Virus record (IMG/VR): IMGVR_UViG_3300032132_000044
Span: 1-22,882 of that record
Length of the DNA stretch: 22,882 nucleotides
Source: a virus
Reading direction: 5' to 3' (one strand)
Numbering within the stretch: position 1 is the first letter of the stretch; the number at the start of each line of letters is the position of its first letter. Under the pieces are notes generated by a model. The model was not told the DNA's origin. It saw only the letters and a program-made list of their open reading frames with translations, and did not search any database. A program made the position numbers and the translations under genes. Positions 3,705-19,875 of the stretch are shown here, in pieces.

Positions 3705-5672
3705 CTATGCTAACTCCATTCTTACCGCCCTTTTAATAGCAGGGAGGATAGAGTCCCTAACTGTTTCGTCAACTAATGGTGCGCTGATATTTACAGTGAT
3801 GTTTCTTGAACTTGAACTCTGACCAGCCCCAAGCGGATCAACAGTTACTCGTTCCCTTCCACTTGGATTGTCTCCAACCATTATCATCTGAGAACCATTT
3901 GTTATAAATTCTCCACCCGTAGCAAAAGATGGAATAAACTTATCAAATAATCCTTTTAATGCAATAGCACCAGCACTTGCTCCAGCAAAAGCTAAAATGG
4001 GATTCAGGGTTTTAAAGCTATTAGCTATGAGGTCAGCAATCGCCTGTGCAATTCTTGATTGTACGTAAGACCTAACACCAGCAAGACTGTCTGCATATGA
4101 TTGTTGTTGAACTTTTGCGGTATTTTCGTCCTCATCACCCTGTTTAGCAGTTGCATCTGTTAAGGTTTTAGTTCCTGCTACTAATTTATCAACAACTGGA
4201 TTTGCTTTTTCCCATTCTTCTTTCAAATCAGTCGCCTTAGTAATCACAAAAGTATATCCTTCAGCACCAAGAAGTTTCATTTCTTCTTTAAGTGCCAATA
4301 TTCGAAGTGTGGTCAGATTTATCCCATTATCCCTTAATAACTGTTCACTCGCAACTCTCATCTGACCAGATATTCCACCAGTGATCTGAGCAAAGGCTCG
4401 TGATAATATATCTAATGTTCCAGAAATTTTTGGGAAACCAGCCCTTATGCCTTCGGATATTTCATTGGATATTGTAAGCCCAATAATAGAAGCACCCTTG
4501 CCAGCAATTTGCATCGCAATAGAAAGGACAGCACTGAGGTTTTGTGCTATCGCCTGACCTATAAATTCCCAACCAATGTCCCCAATTTCTTCTAATCTTG
4601 TATTAATCTTTTTTAGGTGAGGAAGAAGTTCTTTCTTTATGGCATCACCAAGACTTACCATAGCATTTTGAAGTTTTGTTTTCAGCATACTTGCCTGAGT
4701 CTCAAACTTTTCATTCATTTTCTCTACTGCGCTTGATGTCGTACCAGAGATATTGTTAAACCCCTCAACGTTTTCTTTGAACTTGCCCATGTTCCCAGCA
4801 AGGGTTTTTACTGCTAACTGTGCAGTGATATTTGGGATCAACTGCCTCATGGCTTCTGGGTTGTTCTCAACAATCTTTTGGAAACTTCCCATAGTTGATA
4901 CAAAGTCAATCATTCCATCATCTGATTTTACGATCTCCACCCCAAATTCTTCCATAGCCTTTTTTGCTCTTGGGGTTGGACTTTGTAATTGAATGAAAGT
5001 ATTTTTTAAAGAAATAACTGCTTCTGAGGTACTGATACCACCTGCAGTGATCGTAGCCAATGATGCTCCAAGCATTTCAATAGAAACACCAGCACCACTT
5101 GCGAATGGCATAACCTGTCCTAAGGCACTACCAAGTTCTGGGATGGTTGTTTTACCTAATTCTACTGTTTTAAAAAGAACATCAGAAACTCTGGTAACAT
5201 CTGTAAGAGAATCCCCATAGGCGTTCAGGGCTGAGGTTAATACATCGGCTGTGGTTGATATGTCTGAAACACCAGCAAGGGCTAATTCTGCAGAAACTTT
5301 TAATACTTCAGCCTGTTGGGATGCTCCTTTGATACCCGCAGATATAATATCATACTGCGCTTTTGCCGTATCAGCAAAATCTAAACCAAAATCATCTGCA
5401 ACATCTCGTAAACTATGGCTTAATCGTTTTAACTCGGTATCTGTTTGCTTGCCAATGGTTTGAATCTCATTAAGCCCCTTGCCAAATTTCATTGACTCCC
5501 TAAGGGCTATAGTGAATACACCACCAACGCCTAATAGTGTTTTCCAGTTTAAAGCAAATCGTTTAATAGTGCCACCAACAGTGCTAACAGCACCAGCGAC
5601 TCTTTTCATTCCATTAATTGTGGGCTTTAGGTTTTTTAGACCTAATCGAATCAGTAGATCATTTTTTGCCAT
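3705..5672 (-). CDS. Tail tape measure protein (TP901 family)
   Basis: A 655-residue protein with the TP901-type core: residues about 60-300 contain FADTAKAQYDIISAGI, ISTTADVLTSALNAYG, TTIPELGSALGQVMPFA and ISTSEAVISLKNTF in the family's usual order. Hydrophobic segments follow (around 355-400 and 570-590), then the common C-terminal signature FATGGEFITNGSQMIMVGDNPSGRERV in two pieces. Tape measure length sets tail length; at about 0.15 nm per residue this predicts a tail of roughly 100 nm (an estimate from known phages). The start overlaps the end of the GT reading frame by 14 nt. It acts inside the tail tube and is ejected during infection. Confidence 0.93.
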   Translation of the reverse strand: MAKNDLLIRLGLKNLKPTINGMKRVAGAVSTVGGTIKRFALNWKTLLGVGGVFTIALRESMKFGKGLNEIQTIGKQTDTELKRLSHSLRDVADDFGLDFADTAKAQYDIISAGIKGASQQAEVLKVSAELALAGVSDISTTADVLTSALNAYGDSLTDVTRVSDVLFKTVELGKTTIPELGSALGQVMPFASGAGVSIEMLGASLATITAGGISTSEAVISLKNTFIQLQSPTPRAKKAMEEFGVEIVKSDDGMIDFVSTMGSFQKIVENNPEAMRQLIPNITAQLAVKTLAGNMGKFKENVEGFNNISGTTSSAVEKMNEKFETQASMLKTKLQNAMVSLGDAIKKELLPHLKKINTRLEEIGDIGWEFIGQAIAQNLSAVLSIAMQIAGKGASIIGLTISNEISEGIRAGFPKISGTLDILSRAFAQITGGISGQMRVASEQLLRDNGINLTTLRILALKEEMKLLGAEGYTFVITKATDLKEEWEKANPVVDKLVAGTKTLTDATAKQGDEDENTAKVQQQSYADSLAGVRSYVQSRIAQAIADLIANSFKTLNPILAFAGASAGAIALKGLFDKFIPSFATGGEFITNGSQMIMVGDNPSGRERVTVDPLGAGQSSSSRNITVNISAPLVDETVRDSILPAIKRAVRMELA

Positions 5673-11646: not shown

Positions 11647-12039
11647 TTAATAAACTGTTCCCTTTGAGTGCCAACTAATAGCTTTTCGGACTTGTTCTGT
11701 TGTTAATTCAAGTTTACCATCGAAATCTGCTTTCCATACTTTCGCCTTCTTCCCATCTTTAAACAAAACCACACTTGGAAAATTTCTTAATCTTAATTTT
11801 CTCGCAACATCAGGAACTTTTTTAACGGGTACAATCATCATTTGTGTCCCCAGATATGCCGTGTCCCCCTCAATTATAAACTCCCCCATCCAAAAATTGC
11901 TTCCATCTTCCGATGACCAATCAGAAGTAAACCTTACTAAATGCATTCCTTTGTAGATAACACCATAAAAATTAGCATCATTTACCTCCTGTTGTACAGG
12001 CTGGGCAAATACAAATGATAATAATAGTAGCCACCTCAT
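11647..12039 (-). CDS. Exported thioredoxin-like protein lacking the CXXC motif
   Basis: A 130-residue protein with a short signal peptide (MRWLLLLSFVFAQ, likely cleavage after A12). The rest follows the thioredoxin fold: strand HLVRFTSDW, then the position of WCGPC occupied by W41-S-S-E-D45, a later strand, helix KVPDVARKLRLR, the cis-proline segment RNFPSVVLFKDGK (P88) and a final helix LTTEQVRKAI. There is no cysteine anywhere, so it cannot perform disulfide exchange; a binding or structural role is more likely. It overlaps the upstream gene (ATGA) and lies in the lysis cassette, so it may act in the periplasm. The fold assignment is from pattern only. Confidence 0.68.
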   Translation of the reverse strand: MRWLLLLSFVFAQPVQQEVNDANFYGVIYKGMHLVRFTSDWSSEDGSNFWMGEFIIEGDTAYLGTQMMIVPVKKVPDVARKLRLRNFPSVVLFKDGKKAKVWKADFDGKLELTTEQVRKAISWHSKGTVY

Positions 12040-12389
12040 TGGACTGCAATTCTCAAGTTTGTAATCTGTCTATTTAGTTCTTTAATTTCGTCTTGCATTC
12101 CTTCAATAACTTCGTAGAGGTCGTCTTGGTTTTCTTGAAGGTTGCCTACCTGCTGTTTATACTGCTCGTAAGACGGACTCCAGTTAAAATCACTAATGCC
12201 CTTGCTTGGATACTCCTGAGAGAATAACGATAGAGGTACAGGCAATTCCTTAGCCTCTTGTATGTCGGCTTGGAGCATATACCACATTCCGATAAGGCTA
12301 CTAAGTCCCATTCCTCCAGCAATAATTGTTTGGAGACTAAGGGTGAACTTTGACCCTAATATTTTTTCTTCGCTTAATTCTTTAGCCAT
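12036..12389 (-). CDS. Single-span membrane protein with coiled coil
   Basis: A 117-residue protein with one membrane span (residues about 17-39, LSLQTIIAGGMGLSSLIGMW), then ADIQEAKELPVP, a loop, and a C-terminal coiled coil (DLYEVIEGMQDEIKELNRQI). The 'ADIxEAKELP' motif after the span is a pattern I recall from small membrane proteins of other tailed phages. It opens the lysis cassette directly downstream of the fibre genes and overlaps the thioredoxin-like gene (ATGA). A role in lysis or in membrane contact is likely from context; it has no catalytic motif. Confidence 0.68.
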   Translation of the reverse strand: MAKELSEEKILGSKFTLSLQTIIAGGMGLSSLIGMWYMLQADIQEAKELPVPLSLFSQEYPSKGISDFNWSPSYEQYKQQVGNLQENQDDLYEVIEGMQDEIKELNRQITNLRIAVQ

Positions 12390-12395
12390 TAGTTT

Positions 12396-12428
12396 TTAGT
12401 TCCCCAAGATTCTGTTCTTTCCTGCCAT
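12396..12428 (-). other. Mini ORF of 10 codons at the fibre/lysis gene junction
   Basis: The ATG at the conserved junction after the second S74 fibre gene (GGAGAACGCATAATG) opens a frame of only ten codons (MAGKNRILGN) before TAA. The next real gene begins 7 nt later. The ribosome binding site and start are the same as those used at the other fibre junctions, so this is either a leader peptide that couples translation across the gap, or the remnant of a fibre gene start whose body was deleted. Confidence 0.45.
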
Positions 12429-12441
12429 TATGCGTTCTCCA
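12426..12441 (-). repeat. Fibre junction repeat, copy 1
   Basis: The 16-mer TGGAGAACGCATAATG (minus strand) is present here, at 14225-14240 and at 16183-16198, each time at the start of a reading frame. Here it encodes the end of an S74 domain (LENA-stop) and provides GGAG plus ATG for the next frame. Confidence 0.85.
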
Positions 12442-14227
12442 GTGCGGTGACTTTTGCACTTAGTTCTTTTACTGCTTCTATGAGGACAGAAACAATATTA
12501 GTATAAGCAACACCTTTTAAACCGCTTTTTGCATCTTCAGTAACCACCTCTGGTAAAACTTCCTCAGTCTCTTGAGCAATTACTCCCAAGCGTATCTTTT
12601 CCTTATCCCATTGGTCATTTCTTGTATAAGAAACTCCTCTTAATTGATTTATTTTTGATAATCCACCTGAAATAGTTTGTACATTATCCTTCAATGTTTC
12701 ATCTGAATTTTCAGTCACGCTTCCACCAAAGGTAACATCAACCGAATTATACCCCGCAGTTGCAAAAACAACACTTCCATCATTAGTCTTTAACATAAAC
12801 TGTTTAGGTGCTGAAGTACCATAATTGCCAATAGTATAATTGTAATTAGAATATGCGTGGAAATTTATCTGTGGTTCTCCCCAGAGTGTTGTATTAAGCG
12901 TAAGCAGTGAACTGGCATTCGTATTTGTTCCCCCAACTTTTAAGGCTGACTCAAATTGCCCATTAGCACCAAATATACCACTCCCAGCAAATGTGGCGTT
13001 ATTACTCGCATCCAGAGTTAATACTTTAGTTACAGAGCCTCCTGTCATAAAATGCATCTCGCCTTGCCCTGAACCACCTTCAGCAAAAATGACCAAATCA
13101 TTACTTGAGCCAGCACCAGTAACTGTTGCTTCATTACATATTATACCAGCCCTTGCTGTATTCTTAACTTCAAGATAATGTTTACTTGTTATCGCCCCAG
13201 TAGCCGTTATTGACCCAGCAAATGTGGAGGTGCCTGATGTATCTATTGTAAGAAAGTCGTCTGTACCTGCAAAAGAAGAATGCCCTGAAATTTTGAACTT
13301 ATTACTATCTGAGTAATCCATCCCAACACACCAATCATTCCCCCCATTAAAATAAATATATTGGTCATAATTACCATTATTCCCTATTCTCATAACAGTA
13401 TTTTGACCTGCATCAGATACGTGCAGTTTATTGGCTGGACTACTTGTTCCGATGCCGACTTTTCCTGCCTGAGTAATTCTCATTCTCTCGGTTAGTGTTG
13501 CATCAGCATTTGCTGTACCAGATGGTGCAGTAGAAAAATAAAAGTTTCCACTACCCATATTTAATACCGAAGCCTCATCAGTTGAAACATAAGTCCAATC
13601 ACCAGTTGTTACTTCTTCCCTAACATTTTGAGCAATTCGAAATGATGCAGATGCTTGTGTTCCTGTTTCTGAATAGAGAATAGAATTTCCACCAATAGTT
13701 AAACCAGTATAGTTGGCATATAAATTAAAAGGTGTAGCTCCAATACCGATATTGCCTGAAGAGTCAATGGTCATTCTTTTTACTAAAGTTGTTCCATTAG
13801 CACCACTATTAGTTAAGAAATGAAGAGCCCCTGCGTTAAAATATGGTGTTGAGGTTGGTTCTGCATATATTGCCGAAATATTATAATTTGTACCACCAGC
13901 AGAATTTGCAGTTGAAAAATCAATACCATATAAATCATTGATAGAATAGCTTCCAGAGGCTTCCTTAGCAATCAATATTCCCTTATTTGATGTTGTGTGC
14001 GAAGGAGATGGATTTTCAGAAGTATCAAAATCTCCAGCAATTTCTAATCCAGTAAGTGTACCTACTGATTCTAATGAACTTGCAGTTACTCCACTTGCAA
14101 GAGTCGCCCCTGTTAATCCACTTGCGGGAACTGCCGAGGCTACATCAATCGTAATAGTGTCTGGGATATTTGCATCAGGCAAAGTACCTGTGATCATTGA
14201 ATCCAGTTTAATTTTTGTTAGAGCCAT
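12428..14227 (-). CDS. Fibre protein with C-terminal Peptidase_S74 intramolecular chaperone
   Basis: A 599-residue protein. The N-terminus MALTKIKLDSMITGTLPDAN is a common start of modular phage fibres. Residues about 90-500 are beta-rich modules with recurring 'MTIDSSGNIGIG', 'KVGIGTSSPANKLHV' and 'ATFAG' turns, consistent with a trimeric beta-structured shaft. The last 92 residues are a Peptidase_S74 domain: S508-D-E-T-L-K513 (expected Ser-Lys dyad for self-cleavage before Ser), then GVIAQETEEVLPEVV and the final helix ending LSAKVTALENA. Such domains guide trimerisation and are then cut off. It starts and ends at the repeated fibre junctions. Confidence 0.88.
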   Translation of the reverse strand: MALTKIKLDSMITGTLPDANIPDTITIDVASAVPASGLTGATLASGVTASSLESVGTLTGLEIAGDFDTSENPSPSHTTSNKGILIAKEASGSYSINDLYGIDFSTANSAGGTNYNISAIYAEPTSTPYFNAGALHFLTNSGANGTTLVKRMTIDSSGNIGIGATPFNLYANYTGLTIGGNSILYSETGTQASASFRIAQNVREEVTTGDWTYVSTDEASVLNMGSGNFYFSTAPSGTANADATLTERMRITQAGKVGIGTSSPANKLHVSDAGQNTVMRIGNNGNYDQYIYFNGGNDWCVGMDYSDSNKFKISGHSSFAGTDDFLTIDTSGTSTFAGSITATGAITSKHYLEVKNTARAGIICNEATVTGAGSSNDLVIFAEGGSGQGEMHFMTGGSVTKVLTLDASNNATFAGSGIFGANGQFESALKVGGTNTNASSLLTLNTTLWGEPQINFHAYSNYNYTIGNYGTSAPKQFMLKTNDGSVVFATAGYNSVDVTFGGSVTENSDETLKDNVQTISGGLSKINQLRGVSYTRNDQWDKEKIRLGVIAQETEEVLPEVVTEDAKSGLKGVAYTNIVSVLIEAVKELSAKVTALENA

Positions 14228-14240
14228 TATGCGTTCTCCA
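14225..14240 (-). repeat. Fibre junction repeat, copy 2
   Basis: Second copy of TGGAGAACGCATAATG. It encodes LENA-stop of the 652-residue fibre and the ribosome binding site and ATG of the 599-residue fibre (TAATG overlap). Confidence 0.85.
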
Positions 14241-16185
14241 ATGCAGTTACTTTTGCTGAAAGTTCTTGAACTGCTTTAGTTAAGATTGCAACTACACCCA
14301 ATGTATTGATTGCCATTCTATCTTCTTCACCGTGTACTAAGTTTGGAAACTGTTCTTCTACTTCTTGTGCAATAAATCCAATATTATTCCTATCGTGCCT
14401 ATTCAAAGATGCTTTCCATTTAAAGTTTGAAGGCTTTAATAATTCAACTTTATCAAGTGTACTGGAAATTTCTGATATTTCTTTTTTCATTGCTATATCA
14501 GAAGTATCATTAAAATCCCCGTCTATAACACCATCTGAACCATCAAAGAAACAAATTTGACCTTCCTTACCATTCCCAACTCTAAAATCTCTATATTTTG
14601 TAGCCCCATCATTGTACCCTTCATAATTAATCCACATATCGTGGTCTTCTTCATTATAAGCATATCCGCAATTAATCCTATTAGAGTTCAAAGATAATCT
14701 GCCACCATTTGTCCACGCACTGCCGTCAGGAAAAGTAACTCTCCCAGCAAATGTGGCTGAACCATCCTTTTTAAGACTTAAAACTTCTGTAGTATGAGCT
14801 ACTGCATCACGAGCAGATGAAACTCTAAAATCTAATGCTCCCCAATGACTATAATTAGTATATATTCCCCAATTTCTTGCATCAGCAGTAGATGACCCAT
14901 TTGCTAAAACTAAACCTGTAGCATTGTCAGGCATATATAATTGTAAATTTGTATAAGCAGTTTCTAATTGAGTGTCTCCACCAAGAGTAACATCACCAGC
15001 AAATGTGGCTGTGGAACTTGTAAGAGTTAATTGTAATGCGTTATTTACATAAAATCTTTGTTCAGCATCATTCTCAAGAACGTGATTGATATTACTGCCA
15101 GCCAAATCCCAATGAAATTGTGCGCTTGTATCTGATTCTGTCAGATTAATATATGGATTTGTTCCTGTCATAGAAAAGTTGGGTGAACCTCCCCCAGTTG
15201 ATGCTGAAGTCCCAAGAGATAAGGCACTTGCACTCGTACTAACAATCTTCCCAGAGAAGAAACCTTGCCTTGAATTTAAATCCCCAGTTGCTCCAGTAGA
15301 AATATCACCATTAAAAAAAGCAGCTCCACCTGCTGACATATCAAGTTTAAGGGCATCTATTTGTGAACCACCATCATTACCTCTAAAAACTATATCTTCA
15401 TCTTGAGGTACAACTCTAATCTCAAGGTCACTATTATTTCTTACTATTGAGCCATAATGTGTTCCACCATCTTTAAGATGAATATTATCCCCCGCTGTAT
15501 CACCATCAAGTATAATTGTTCCTCCAACATCAAGGGTAAAGTCTCCAGCATCTGATATAGTTGAACCATTAATTGTAATGTCATCTACTGTCAAAGATGT
15601 AAGAGTACCTACTGAAGTAATAGCAGTCTGAGCCTCTTGAGTAACTGTTAGAGCAGTACCACTTGCATTACCAGTAACATTGCCTACAAAAGTGCCTGTG
15701 ATTGTTCCACCATTAGTGACATTCTGACTATTAAGGTCAATAGCTCCTGACATCTGACCACCACCAAGAGGTAAATAATCTTCGGCGTCAGTTGCCCAAG
15801 AGAATGTTCCATCCCCGTCGCTTGTTAAAACTTGCCCGTTTGATCCATCTCCTGAAACCTTTAACTCGTCTGCTCCAATAGTTCCCCCGCCTACACTTGC
15901 AGACTGTCCCATCAGGACTCCATAGAAATCTGCCCCGCTTTGAGGTGCTTCAGTGAATGTGATTGTCGAACCTGATACATTGAATGCAGAAGTCGGTTGC
16001 TGAACAACCCCATCAAGCATTATAAGTAAATTTTGTATGTTCGGTGTTATGCTTACACTTCCAACCTGTAAAGTAAAAGCAACTACATCCGTACCAACGT
16101 CCCCAGAACCATTAAAGGTAGAAGCTATATCATCGAGTTCAATAAAACTTCCTGCGTTGGTTGGATTAAATCCTATATATGGCAT
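14227..16185 (-). CDS. Fibre protein with N-terminal attachment domain and C-terminal Peptidase_S74 domain
   Basis: A 652-residue protein. Residues 1-110 (MPYIGFNPTNAGSFIELDDI, QNLLIMLDGVVQQPTSAFNV, TITFTEAPQSGADFY) form an N-terminal domain widespread in phage fibres, presumably for attachment to the particle. The middle has repeated modules ('SVGTLTSLTVDDITINGSTI', 'ATFAGDV', 'ATFAGRV'). The last 91 residues are Peptidase_S74 with S562-D-I-A-M-K567, then GFIAQEVEEQFPNLV and LSAKVTALENA. The end is nearly identical to that of the next fibre, the rest is not, which suggests exchange of body modules onto a shared C-terminus. It starts with ATG after the third junction repeat. Confidence 0.9.
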   Translation of the reverse strand: MPYIGFNPTNAGSFIELDDIASTFNGSGDVGTDVVAFTLQVGSVSITPNIQNLLIMLDGVVQQPTSAFNVSGSTITFTEAPQSGADFYGVLMGQSASVGGGTIGADELKVSGDGSNGQVLTSDGDGTFSWATDAEDYLPLGGGQMSGAIDLNSQNVTNGGTITGTFVGNVTGNASGTALTVTQEAQTAITSVGTLTSLTVDDITINGSTISDAGDFTLDVGGTIILDGDTAGDNIHLKDGGTHYGSIVRNNSDLEIRVVPQDEDIVFRGNDGGSQIDALKLDMSAGGAAFFNGDISTGATGDLNSRQGFFSGKIVSTSASALSLGTSASTGGGSPNFSMTGTNPYINLTESDTSAQFHWDLAGSNINHVLENDAEQRFYVNNALQLTLTSSTATFAGDVTLGGDTQLETAYTNLQLYMPDNATGLVLANGSSTADARNWGIYTNYSHWGALDFRVSSARDAVAHTTEVLSLKKDGSATFAGRVTFPDGSAWTNGGRLSLNSNRINCGYAYNEEDHDMWINYEGYNDGATKYRDFRVGNGKEGQICFFDGSDGVIDGDFNDTSDIAMKKEISEISSTLDKVELLKPSNFKWKASLNRHDRNNIGFIAQEVEEQFPNLVHGEEDRMAINTLGVVAILTKAVQELSAKVTALENA

Positions 16186-16198
16186 TATGCGTTCTCCA
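16183..16198 (-). repeat. Fibre junction repeat, copy 3 (relic after a non-S74 gene)
   Basis: Third copy of TGGAGAACGCATAATG, but here it lies after the stop of the 613-residue fibre (TAACA, then the repeat) instead of being its last codons. In the repeat's original frame it would read MENA-stop rather than LENA-stop. It still supplies GGAG and ATG for the 652-residue fibre. Confidence 0.8.
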
Positions 16199-16203
16199 TT
16201 ATG

Positions 16204-18045
16204 TTATAATACCCTATCCATAGTTAATGCTTTGGCATTTGACCCTGAACTGTCCATACCCCCACCGCTAACTCTACAAGAAGCCCATCCATTAAAATAT
16301 ACTGATTCATTGTTTGTGCATTTTACAAAAAATGCTCCTGAACCATCATTAACAATAGACCAAGTCCAACTTGATTGAACATTGGTTATAGTATGAAGTA
16401 TAGCACAAGTATCACCAACACTTTCCACAACTACCTGATAAGAGCTATAAGACTTAGCTCCATTATTAGTTAGACCACCACCTTCTACTGTAACTACACA
16501 TACTCCATAATTATCCACAAAGTCTATTTTCCAAAAATTAGTACCTGTATTACCAGCAAGACCTATATGTCTTGAATCGTTGTGATACCCAGTATACTGA
16601 CCGTTCCCTTGTGAAATAATTCCAGTAAATGTGGCGTTTTGTGATGAATCAAGGGTTAGAGCAAGACCTTGTGCCGCTGTATAAAATTTTATATAACCAC
16701 TACTATCAAGTGTAGATAAATTTATGCCAGTGCTGTTATTTGTGATACAGGTGGAACCAGCCTGATATGGACCAGCACTATTATAAGATGCACCTAACTG
16801 AAATATGCTGGTATCATTAGTTCCTGGACAATGAATATGACAACCTGCATACAAAGTAGCAGTATCTGATGTAATTTCAACGGCAGGATTAGCCCCATTA
16901 ACAGCTAATGCGTTCCCAGAAAATGTGGCGTTCCCAGAAAATGTGGCGTTGCCAGTAAAGGAAGATAACCCATAATGATACAATCCACCATCACTTGCTA
17001 TTTCAGTTCTTTTTACACCAGCAGTTGTAAATCCAATATGGTCTGCTTGAGTTCTATACATTCCTGTATTTTTATCTGAATCCCAAGAAAAACTTGGTGC
17101 TGTTACTGAACCATTTACTCCTAAAACTTTTCCTGCAAAGGTAGCATCTTGACCAGTGTCAAGAGTCAAGGCTGTGGTTGAACCATTAGTTTTAATATAT
17201 ATATTTGCTGAAGATTGTGCAATCAAGTCAGACCCAGTTCCATATATTACTTCGGCTGAATCTCCAAATTGAACACCCTCATTAGATGGTAAAACTACTG
17301 CCCCAGCGAATGTGGCTGTGCCACTATCATTTAAAGTCAAAACGGTAGTATGTGTATCTCCAGTATTGACATAAAATCGTAATTGACCCTTCTGGGTATT
17401 TACTTGTGTTAACTTTGCTTCAATCCCAGCATATGTAGTATTCCCCGATTCACCAACTCCACCATTTGGGAAATTACCAACATTAAATAAAATTTTATTT
17501 GTATTATTTACGACATCATCCGTGTTCATCATTAAATTGTGGTCACCACCTGATGCACCACTTCTATGAATAAACAATCCAGTCTCCCCAGCGTGGGTTA
17601 TGTTAAGTATATTACTTGGTGACGCAGTTCCAATTCCTACCTTATTTGCAGATGAGTCAACAACTAAAGTCGTAGTATCCCATACTAAATCACCAGTACC
17701 ACCAGTAAGAGAAGTCAGAGTACCTACTGACTGAATAGCAGATTGAGTTGCACCAGTTACAGTAGCAGAAGAGCCACTTGCGTTTCCAGTTAAGTTTCCA
17801 GTTATCGCCCCTGAGAAACTGGCAGTTCCCGTTACAGTTAATTTCTCAGCACCGCTTACAGCCCCTCCAAGCCCAAGCGTACCCATTTGAAACCCAGTTC
17901 CATCGTCATCAATTTTAGAAGGCGTTACTGCATCGTTTAGAATGTCAATCGTATTGACTGCATCCGTACCCAATTCAACGGAAGTAATAACTCCCTGTCC
18001 AACACTGACGGCAACCTTACTCGGTTCATATCCGTAATATGCCAT
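16204..18045 (-). CDS. Fibre protein without S74 domain
   Basis: A 613-residue protein with N-terminus MAYYGYEPSKVAVSVGQGVI, a common fibre start. Residues about 60-480 hold modules like those of the other fibres ('NLTGNASGSSATVTGATQSA', 'SVGTLTSLTGG', 'KVGIGTASPSNILNI', 'ATFAG', a tandem NATFSG pair). The C-terminal ~130 residues (from YTGYHNDSRHIGLAGNTGTN) are a different, Trp- and Ser-rich beta domain with no S74 motif, probably a receptor-binding or capping tip. It starts at TAATG with the upstream 110-residue gene. The stop is followed by a relic of the S74-gene end, suggesting the C-terminus was replaced. Confidence 0.82.
   Translation of the reverse strand: MAYYGYEPSKVAVSVGQGVITSVELGTDAVNTIDILNDAVTPSKIDDDGTGFQMGTLGLGGAVSGAEKLTVTGTASFSGAITGNLTGNASGSSATVTGATQSAIQSVGTLTSLTGGTGDLVWDTTTLVVDSSANKVGIGTASPSNILNITHAGETGLFIHRSGASGGDHNLMMNTDDVVNNTNKILFNVGNFPNGGVGESGNTTYAGIEAKLTQVNTQKGQLRFYVNTGDTHTTVLTLNDSGTATFAGAVVLPSNEGVQFGDSAEVIYGTGSDLIAQSSANIYIKTNGSTTALTLDTGQDATFAGKVLGVNGSVTAPSFSWDSDKNTGMYRTQADHIGFTTAGVKRTEIASDGGLYHYGLSSFTGNATFSGNATFSGNALAVNGANPAVEITSDTATLYAGCHIHCPGTNDTSIFQLGASYNSAGPYQAGSTCITNNSTGINLSTLDSSGYIKFYTAAQGLALTLDSSQNATFTGIISQGNGQYTGYHNDSRHIGLAGNTGTNFWKIDFVDNYGVCVVTVEGGGLTNNGAKSYSSYQVVVESVGDTCAILHTITNVQSSWTWSIVNDGSGAFFVKCTNNESVYFNGWASCRVSGGGMDSSGSNAKALTMDRVL
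16913..16948 (-). repeat. Perfect 18-bp tandem duplication in fibre gene
   Basis: The 18-bp unit ttcccagaaaatgtggcg (plus-strand reading) occurs twice back to back at 16913-16930 and 16931-16948, encoding NATFSG-NATFSG. The unit length is a multiple of three so the frame is kept. A degenerate third copy follows. Confidence 0.9.
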
Positions 18046-18377
18046 TAGGTTATCTCCATTATCGAAAGCAATACATCAACTGCGTTGCTCTCGGATGCAA
18101 TTACCCGAACCTCCTCATCCTGATTCAGTACGAGTTTATTTCCCGCCATAACTTCCAAAGCCCCTCCTGCGGGAATCGGTGCATCTTTGACTAAATAATA
18201 CTGATCGTTTCCTGAATCGTAAACACTAACTGAGGCAGTCACGGAATTAGTCAATCTATTAGACAGACTACATCCAATCACTATTGTCCTGTACCCTGAA
18301 GTATTGCCAACCGCATATACAGATACCTCGCTTGTCCCTACGAGTCGGGATTTATTGCTTTTGAATGTATTTGCCAT
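18045..18377 (-). CDS. Small beta-sandwich virion protein
   Basis: A 110-residue protein: MANTFKSNKSRLVGTSEVSV, then a strand with TIVIGCSLSNRL, then YYLVKDAPIPAGGALEVMAG, NKLVLNQDEEVRV and a last strand VDVLLSIMEIT. The pattern 'YLVKDAPIPAGGxLxV...G.KLVL...D.V.V.AS' is a recurrent small phage structural protein type, with an all-beta fold, which I recall being encoded near capsid or fibre genes. It could be a capsid decoration or fibre-connecting protein; the exact role is unknown. Its last codons ATG GAG ATA ACC carry the ribosome binding site of the next gene, which starts at TAATG. Confidence 0.65.
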   Translation of the reverse strand: MANTFKSNKSRLVGTSEVSVYAVGNTSGYRTIVIGCSLSNRLTNSVTASVSVYDSGNDQYYLVKDAPIPAGGALEVMAGNKLVLNQDEEVRVIASESNAVDVLLSIMEIT

Positions 18378-18380
18378 ATT

Positions 18381-18596
18381 TTATCCCAATGCTATTGCAA
18401 GAGCAGTTGCCTCATCACTTACAGCATTAGCATCAGGCACTTCACGGATGACACTTGCCGAATCCTTGAAATACATTTTACTAATATCTGCGTGATAGTT
18501 TAGTGCAATCTCCCCGTTAGATAAATCGCCTGTACTCGGCTTGATATTACCCAATGAGGAGTTGCTCTTGTTTTTAATTATTATAGTATTCGCCAC
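18381..18596 (-). CDS. Short fibre-related protein (N-terminal-domain paralogue)
   Basis: A 71-residue protein, MANTIIIKNKSNSSLGNIKP then LSNGEIALNYHADISKMYFKDSAS. It matches the plan of the first ~45 residues of the preceding gene: xxIIIKR/N-x-Ser/Ala...SL..P..G...GE-x-x-x...D-KMYF/FYVA. So it is a stand-alone copy of a small domain commonly found at the N-terminus of phage fibres. It starts at GTG, overlapping the previous stop (TAGTG), with only a weak ribosome binding site GGTGGT. It may be an adapter that joins fibres to the particle. Confidence 0.62.
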   Translation of the reverse strand: MANTIIIKNKSNSSLGNIKPSTGDLSNGEIALNYHADISKMYFKDSASVIREVPDANAVSDEATALAIALG

Positions 18597-19549
18597 TAAA
18601 AAGTACCACCGTCAAGTGTAGCATTATCAACACTTGCACAACTGATCCCTGCTAAGACGTATCCACTTGCACCAGTATTAACAGTATTTGCTGGTTCTGT
18701 ACCTGTGCCTTTAAAGAATGTCCATACATCCGAATTATCCTGATCTGAGAACATCCCCTTGTACTTTGTGCCACTTGATACATATTTACCAAAAAGCCCA
18801 ATGTCAACCGAGTTGGCAGAGTTATCTTTTGCCATCATTATATTGACATCGCCTAATTCAACTTGCTGAGCATTCGCAGTGGTCATCGTACCATTAACTG
18901 TTAAGTCGCCACCGATAGTAACATCGTCTGGCAATCCTACTGTAAAAGTCCCTGCATCTTCTGCTACTGTTACCTCGTTACTTGTACCTTGAATAGTTAA
19001 AGTTCCACCAAGAGCAACAGGCGAAGTATTACTACTATCAGAGACAGTAACTGTACTATTCGCTAATTGAGTGTTCGTTACACCACCAGCCTTGATTGCA
19101 ACTGAACCTGAAGTAACAGCGAAGTCTGTCGTTGGAAAAAATGCAACACCAGCGTTTGATGCCGTTGCCAATTCCCCTGCGATAGTTACTGCCTGTGAGG
19201 AGTGAGTTATATTAACTCCCTCGCCACTTGTGAAAGCAAGAGTTTGTGAATCTAAATCCACAGCCCCCGTTCCAGTGTCAGTAGAGAAATCTAAGTCCTG
19301 AGCAGTTACCTGAGCATCTACATAGGCTTTAATTGATTGTTGAGTTGCGAGAGATGTAGCCGAGTCTGATGAAAGAGTATCTTGGTCGAGAATACTCGCA
19401 CCAACCCATTCAAAATTTCCTGCACTTGTACCACTTGCAACATAGAATTTGTTGTCAGAAGTACCCCAAACTGGCTCACCTATACTGGCAGGTGTAAGCG
19501 AACTGACGTTTGCGTCAGCACCTCTCTTTATTATGATTTTGTTTGCCAT
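18596..19549 (-). CDS. Fibre-like structural protein
   Basis: A 317-residue protein. Residues 1-45 form the small domain MANKIIIKRGADANVSSLTP ... GEPVWGTSDNKFYVASG; then a helical SLATQQSIKAYVDAQV linker, beta repeats (VALGGTLTIQGTSNEVTV, DDVTIGGDLTVNGTM), a domain about 240-295 (VDIGLFGKYVSSGTKYKGMF, WTFFKGTGTEP) and the end ATLDGGTF. The domain around 240-295 resembles one frequent in marine phage fibres. No S74 domain and no catalytic motif. It starts at TAATG, where the previous gene's DGGTF codons contain the perfect ribosome binding site GGAGGT. Confidence 0.75.
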   Translation of the reverse strand: MANKIIIKRGADANVSSLTPASIGEPVWGTSDNKFYVASGTSAGNFEWVGASILDQDTLSSDSATSLATQQSIKAYVDAQVTAQDLDFSTDTGTGAVDLDSQTLAFTSGEGVNITHSSQAVTIAGELATASNAGVAFFPTTDFAVTSGSVAIKAGGVTNTQLANSTVTVSDSSNTSPVALGGTLTIQGTSNEVTVAEDAGTFTVGLPDDVTIGGDLTVNGTMTTANAQQVELGDVNIMMAKDNSANSVDIGLFGKYVSSGTKYKGMFSDQDNSDVWTFFKGTGTEPANTVNTGASGYVLAGISCASVDNATLDGGTF

Positions 19550-19875
19550 TAGAACGTACCTCCGTCAATGGTTTTGTTATTTAATGATTGAGTCGTTGCA
19601 ATATCCACAATGTCGTCAGCGTTTGTACCGCCAACTTCTTTGTCGTCCAACTGATTCAATTCGTTTGCTGTTGCCGAAATCCCACTCCCCGAAATCTTTA
19701 ATTGTGTTTTGACGTTTATAGAATTGCCACTTAATTCCAAATCTGTGGCTGTTCCATCCCCATCATATAAAATTCTATTAGTTGTAGCGTGAACTCCATC
19801 TGAGTCCCCAACGTGGATTAATTGCTTATATCCGTCTGCAACTGCAATAGCGGATAGATCAGTCCTTTGTGCCAT
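19549..19875 (-). CDS. Short fibre-like structural protein
   Basis: A 108-residue protein, MAQRTDLSAIAVADGYKQLI then NRILYDGDGTATDLELSGNS and TQSLNNKTIDGGTF at the end. The last module (TANELNQLDDKEVGGTNADDI, then TQSLNNKTIDGGTF) is a repeat type found in long phage fibres, but here it is a separate short protein whose end matches the end of the next gene (DGGTF). GGAG lies 7 nt before the ATG, immediately downstream of the compound hairpin after the capsid gene. It may be a decoration, head-fibre or fibre-attachment protein. Confidence 0.68.
   Translation of the reverse strand: MAQRTDLSAIAVADGYKQLIHVGDSDGVHATTNRILYDGDGTATDLELSGNSINVKTQLKISGSGISATANELNQLDDKEVGGTNADDIVDIATTQSLNNKTIDGGTF

Follow-up and report, generated by a model that had tools for sequence, protein, structure and literature searches.

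Coupling of adjacent genes by a TAATG overlap with an internal Shine-Dalgarno sequence is established (reviewed in PMC12548453; for its distance dependence, see PMC10666635). For phage mosaicism, conserved boundary sequences are debated against blind joining (PMC3029335, PMC3233612), and Peptidase_S74 (PF13884) characterizes intramolecular chaperone fibres, in which it serves for folding and self-cleavage (Schwarzer 2007, cited by PMC11058221). Here, we describe a 16-bp element, TGGAGAACGCATAATG—hereafter the seam—that is present in three exact copies on the minus strand of IMGVR_UViG_3300032132_000044, a virus record of 22,882 bases analysed over its whole length (positions 1–22,882, the window). 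The same 16 letters end tail-fibre genes and start the next gene in this marine phage and in many distant relatives. Judged from its sequence and surroundings, the seam is probably a translation-initiation and coupling element that occupies the final codons of S74-type fibre genes and is kept after the loss of S74.

The seam resembles the -1 nt stop/start coupling systems in that it has a TAATG with GGAG 8 nt ahead inside the upstream coding sequence and stands between genes of one structure. Unlike in these systems, it is one exact 16-nt word at S74-ended fibres of many distant phages, which persists after its coding role has been lost. With the short conserved boundary sequences it shares its shortness, its identity and its place at the joint of interchangeable modules where similarity breaks, but it belongs to coding sequence, has a translation role that appears evident from its bases, and shows no significant excess of breakpoints. 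The use of the last codons as a start signal for the next gene is not described in the available part of the Peptidase_S74 literature (PMC11058221). Hence, as far as searched, one exact coding word at the S74 joints of distant phages—kept in non-coding form after S74 loss—is new. Phage fibres are built from exchangeable modules, whose joints might arise at boundary sequences or from blind joining with later selection; the seam offers a joint with a seemingly clear translation role and base-for-base conservation across distant phages.

The minus strand of the window carries the head, tail and fibre genes. The seams and the fibres that they join are as follows.

12426–12441, minus strand: seam 1, the end of the 599-aa fibre (LENA-stop) with an ATG that opens a 10-codon open reading frame only
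14225–14240, minus strand: seam 2, the LENA-stop of the 652-aa S74 fibre, with GGAG 8 nt ahead of the start of the 599-aa fibre and a TAATG overlap
16183–16198, minus strand: seam 3, a non-coding copy that supplies the 652-aa fibre with its start codon and putative ribosome-binding site; the arrangement is also found in L082/L124 and L126
12428–14227, minus strand: 599-aa fibre with C-terminal S74 (PF13884 at residues 508–563, domain about 12539–12706, 57.4 bits)
14227–16185, minus strand: 652-aa fibre of the MPYIG family with C-terminal S74 (PF13884 at residues 562–618, domain about 14332–14502, 49.9 bits)
16204–18045, minus strand: 613-aa fibre without S74; other phages have, at this locus, S74-ended fibres with a homologous N-terminus

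An earlier note on this DNA had claimed an identical 16-bp seam at three fibre gene junctions, and the three copies are indeed exact. A fourth copy is not found in the window at up to three mismatches. With the same tolerance, shuffled sequence yields a mean of 0.21 copies and a maximum of 2, never 3, and a chance origin was rejected. The description of the seam as S74 terminus, ribosome-binding site and start codon in one unit agrees with the geometry, as GGAG lies 8 nt ahead of ATG at all three seams. Two copies are coding, as had been proposed: in the 599-aa and 652-aa fibres, both well above the curated Pfam cut-off of 22 bits, the Peptidase_S74 domain precedes a C-terminal coiled coil ELSAKVTALENA—as in other chaperone fibres of this type—and the seam forms their last five codons. 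The TAATG overlap leads into a real downstream gene at seam 2 and only into the 10-codon frame at seam 1. The third seam is located behind the stop of the 613-aa fibre (16204–16206), with 18 nt between this stop and the next start. That this fibre lacks S74 is borne out by the searches, which gave no S74 match, no Pfam match above cut-off and no PHROG match for it. In the two S74 genes of the window, the 45 nt ahead of the seam are identical at 31 of 45 positions; hence, strict identity does not extend beyond the seam.

The seam is distributed far beyond this window. Scanning IMG/VR for the 16-mer gave at least 124 matches in at least 120 stretches; among the 124 matches listed, 78 are S74-type coiled-coil LENA ends, and 69 of these listed ends are directly followed by a gene of at least 50 codons. 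Also among the matches listed are 13–16 in enterobacterial prophages, beside an antitermination Q-like gene, an EYTLENA family (8 matches) and about 20 scattered ones, all of which were set aside as unrelated occurrences. In isolates, the coding seam is present in the Pelagibacter phages HTVC106P and HTVC100P and in the Methylophilales phage MEP401; in all three, the seam gene has an S74 domain, and the -1 overlap is annotated. When 84,980 prokaryote genomes were scanned with a 20-mer, a single contig matched, from a metagenome-assembled Flavobacteriaceae genome, where the match follows an EQALENA end.

Why the bases themselves are fixed can be addressed by a codon-blind sample—a degenerate scan for the peptide K-V-x-A-L-E-N-A-stop, which gave 104 distinct viral ends. 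In this sample, 33 ends overlap an ATG (TAATG) and 71 do not. The word TGGAGAACGCA is present in 29 of the 33 TAATG ends compared with 3 of the 71 others; by Fisher's test, p is about 4e-18 when related sequences count as separate entries. AAC is used in 32/33 against 43/71, and GCA in 32/33 against 29/71. The variety of codons -6 to -15 is about equal in both groups, with free variation at the synonymous sites there. S74 ends without ATG overlap thus keep the peptide and not the DNA word, and can serve as a natural control, in which the word is lost from an unchanged peptide end when no ATG follows. A Shine-Dalgarno core alone was rejected as the cause of the whole word, since AAC and GCA are fixed as well. 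The use of AAC rather than AAT would avoid AAT-GC, in which an ATG out of frame would compete with the start; in TAATG-linked S74 ends of the LENK/LENR type, which have the same geometry, AAT is used and is harmless there. The 71 non-TAATG ends include AAT-GC ends whose embedded ATG can open a gene, and in 13 of 28 AAT-GC ends it opens a reading frame of at least 50 codons. Among 194 TAATG junctions from protein-selected loci, a spacing of 8 nt from GGAG to ATG is the most frequent one, and the most frequent word is the seam (10 copies).

As a side observation, LENA ends written GAA-AAT-GCN (L127, L136, L140, L361, L364 and others) carry an embedded ATG that starts the following gene, and the two genes overlap by 8 nt. 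This is a second type of link between an S74 end and the gene behind it.

On a mechanistic level, Leu-Glu written as YTG-GAG would supply GGAG as the Shine-Dalgarno core, with AAC-GCA-TA as the 8-nt spacer. TAA shares its last A with the next ATG, such that a ribosome finishing the fibre would be placed to start the next gene. As the next gene would depend on the seam, selection might retain it once its upstream coding role is gone.

The history of the third seam can be followed in relatives, whose locus was found via the 110-aa gene, the 117-aa gene and the second fibre. The features needed are the following.

16204–16614, minus strand: C-terminal candidate replacement module (about residues 478–613 of the 613-aa fibre) with no relative among the compared loci
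16171–16202, minus strand: 32-bp block identical to L124, made up of ATAATGGAGAACGCATAATG and the codons with which the MPYIG gene begins
18045–18377, minus strand: 110-aa gene upstream of the fibre array, an anchor for locating the locus in relatives
12036–12389, minus strand: 117-aa gene behind the array, the second anchor; its identity with the L124 counterpart is 97%
12396–12428, minus strand: 10-codon open reading frame MAGKNRILGN, apparently a remnant of the 108-aa gene of L124
18043–18058, minus strand: junction into the 613-aa fibre, TGGAGATAACCTAATG, with GGAG-8-ATG geometry, kept in relatives

Second fibres of the MPYIG family, found by protein, stand in eight cases behind an S74-type fibre with the exact coding seam, and in three (the window, L468/L126 and L477/L124) behind a non-S74 fibre with the exact non-coding seam; in L476, a partial seam, GAACGCATAATG, is fused to another leader. 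The 613-aa fibre has homologues that keep an S74 end, for which the earlier note had advised to look. The L213/L473 fibre has 603 aa and a Pfam S74 match of 33.9 bits, and is followed by the seam and then by a fibre gene; the window fibre is 66% identical to L473 over its first 128 residues. Likewise, the S74-ended L471 (731 aa, S74 49.7 bits, seam) aligns to window residues 3–477, and the homology stops at 477. With L469, the 613-aa fibre is 64% identical over 81 residues. The C-termini ahead of the non-coding seams of the window, L126 and L124 are mutually unrelated, the one of L124 being a C1q domain (33.9 bits). A TAA abutting the seam is the stop in use in L124 and L126; the window has the same TAA (16199–16201), but out of frame and 3 nt beyond the stop in use. 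In addition, L052 and L078 carry truncated S74 genes, which end short of the coiled coil; an intact seam follows after 0 and 1 nt.

Hence, as these comparisons suggest, S74 and the seam most likely formed the end of the fibre from which the 613-aa one descends, and the C-terminus of that fibre was then replaced by a module with its own stop—the old seam would have survived as a plain leader of the 652-aa gene. This was also the reading of the earlier note, and the L473 and L471 homologues and the non-coding seams of L126 and L124 speak for it. Gene ends differ among relatives, and the 16-mer is present in them. A non-coding TGGAGAACGCATAATG might, thus, serve as a practical mark of sites where an S74 end was lost. 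As for the putative replacing module, tblastn of the 613-aa fibre gave no match in named phages, none of the compared loci has a relative of the 143 C-terminal residues, such that a donor was not found, and a single-sequence structure prediction of residues 471–613 gave no usable fold (predicted local distance difference test score of 34.7).

At the opposite end of the array, L124 (contig 3300034980_000289) has the same three-fibre order with all three seams, and its last seam starts the 108-aa gene, homologues of which are found in several relatives. Compared with L124, the window has lost 286 bp between two AAAG repeats, which breaks the frame, and the remaining ATG GCA GGA AAG is joined out of frame to the last codons of the 108-aa gene, giving MAGKNRILGN-stop. 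Seam 1 would therefore have lost its downstream gene by an internal deletion, which makes the start codon at 12428 a second relic. The proposal of three junctions with one relic, thus, stands for the three seams and for seam 3 as a relic, but falls short at seam 1, which opens only a stub and is a relic, too. A more drastic loss is seen in L028, where a whole fibre has collapsed to 31 residues ending in LENA and the seam.

Exchange beside the seam can be observed in several locus pairs. Between L213 and L222/L124, the second fibre is 85% identical over 399 bp; the similarity breaks off at the seam, and the ends ahead of it are unrelated. In 12 locus pairs, the S74 end is shared (80–87% identity over at least 150 bp) and the next genes are unrelated; in two pairs, the next gene is shared and the upstream ends are unrelated. 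A short identical word hereby joins differing combinations of modules, which is a feature of conserved boundary sequences. The gain, loss and exchange of fibre genes with breaks at the seam that the earlier note had anticipated are, hence, found. Its suggestion that fibre genes can be swapped or lost while coupling is kept holds for exchange and loss beside an intact seam; we infer the coupling itself, like the order of the events above, from the sequences. Exchange would leave a working start signal behind, and there is no sign here that the seam promotes exchange or is a preferred breakpoint. Among pairs with similar upstream DNA, strong downstream similarity is lacking in 5/5 at seams compared with 41/69 at other ends (Fisher p = 0.15).

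It is possible, though we would hold this only tentatively, that the seam is mainly conserved as a 16–20-bp boundary for the homologous shuffling of fibre modules. The breaks at the seam in several pairs agree with this, as does L476, which resembles a crossover inside the seam, and the recombination-boundary model is present in the literature (PMC3029335, PMC3233612). Furthermore, a 398-bp segment that is 99% identical between the window and L124 points to recent exchange between these phages. On the contrary, S74 ends without the seam break as well, with no significant excess at seams, 16–20 bp is short for general homologous recombination, and the specificity of the word for TAATG junctions is explained by coupling and not by recombination. 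A wider idea, in which aquatic phages would share the seam as a plug standard that unites chaperone tail, ribosome-binding site and exchange joint in one coding word, appears rather unlikely; if true, fibre genes or C-terminal modules of unrelated phages could be combined and translated in step at once.

For seam 3 alone, it might be argued that it was never an S74 end but a free-standing leader of the 652-aa (MPYIG) gene, which was placed together with this leader behind an existing fibre. GGAGAACGCATAATG is geometrically sufficient as a leader by itself, ATAATGGAGAACGCATAATGCCATATATAGG is common to three phages with differing upstream genes, and in L056 the 16-mer is intergenic, behind a hairpin, with no S74 connection. 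We nevertheless regard this as unlikely: a leader requires just GGAG and a spacer and not AACGCA, the MPYIG genes of L465/L466 do without such a leader, the exact word is the coding end of an S74-type fibre ahead of eight genes of this family, and S74-ended homologues of the window fibre occupy the same position. Recent common descent only—the copies being recent duplicates with nothing selected—would account for identical copies within one array and for paralogous S74 ends, but is highly improbable given the diverged 45 nt directly beside the identical seam, upstream codons that are as diverse across viruses as in unlinked ends, and the loss of the DNA word, with the peptide kept, where no ATG overlaps.

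Several points nevertheless weigh against the seam as a coupling element kept after S74 loss. The 33 TAATG ends are not independent of one another. Neither the Shine-Dalgarno core nor the avoidance of ATG explains the choice of GCA or the A at the third base of codon -5, which is present in 33/33 sampled TAATG ends and not in HTVC100P. For the third seam, the non-S74 homologues L465/L466 lack any seam, and hence the S74 state is not demonstrably ancestral; that S74 was lost rather than gained is the direction we infer, and a whole gene may, less probably, have been placed ahead of a seam that was already there.

Some further observations concern the surroundings of the seams. In L476 (about 4960–5003), a leader TTAATTAACAGGAGATA, which also occurs in L369, is joined to the partial seam as if by a crossover within it. 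The segment shared with L124 lies mid-first-fibre (window 16933–17327, L124 5990–6387) and appears to be a recent exchange within the fibre gene; the head genes of L124 are unrelated. The junction into the first fibre has TGGAG-8 nt-ATG as in the seam with a different spacer. This start has its own conserved word (TATGGAGATAACCTAATG and related forms), with which the 110-aa gene ends, and the junction type is common to the window, L467, L468, L471, L473, L474, L476 and L478. Within the fibres, a peptide motif ATFAG/ATFSG is repeated (12993–13240, 14740, 15000, 16633, 16920–16950, 17305), and the DNA that encodes it (CCAGCAAATGTGGC or near variants) is very similar in the paralogous fibres of the window. 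Finally, tail genes end in DGGTF, DGGTY or DGGSY (window 19549–19560 and 18596–18610; L124; L126), e.g., GACGGAGGTACGTTCTAATG—codons that form another C-terminal peptide motif containing the likely ribosome-binding site of the next gene.

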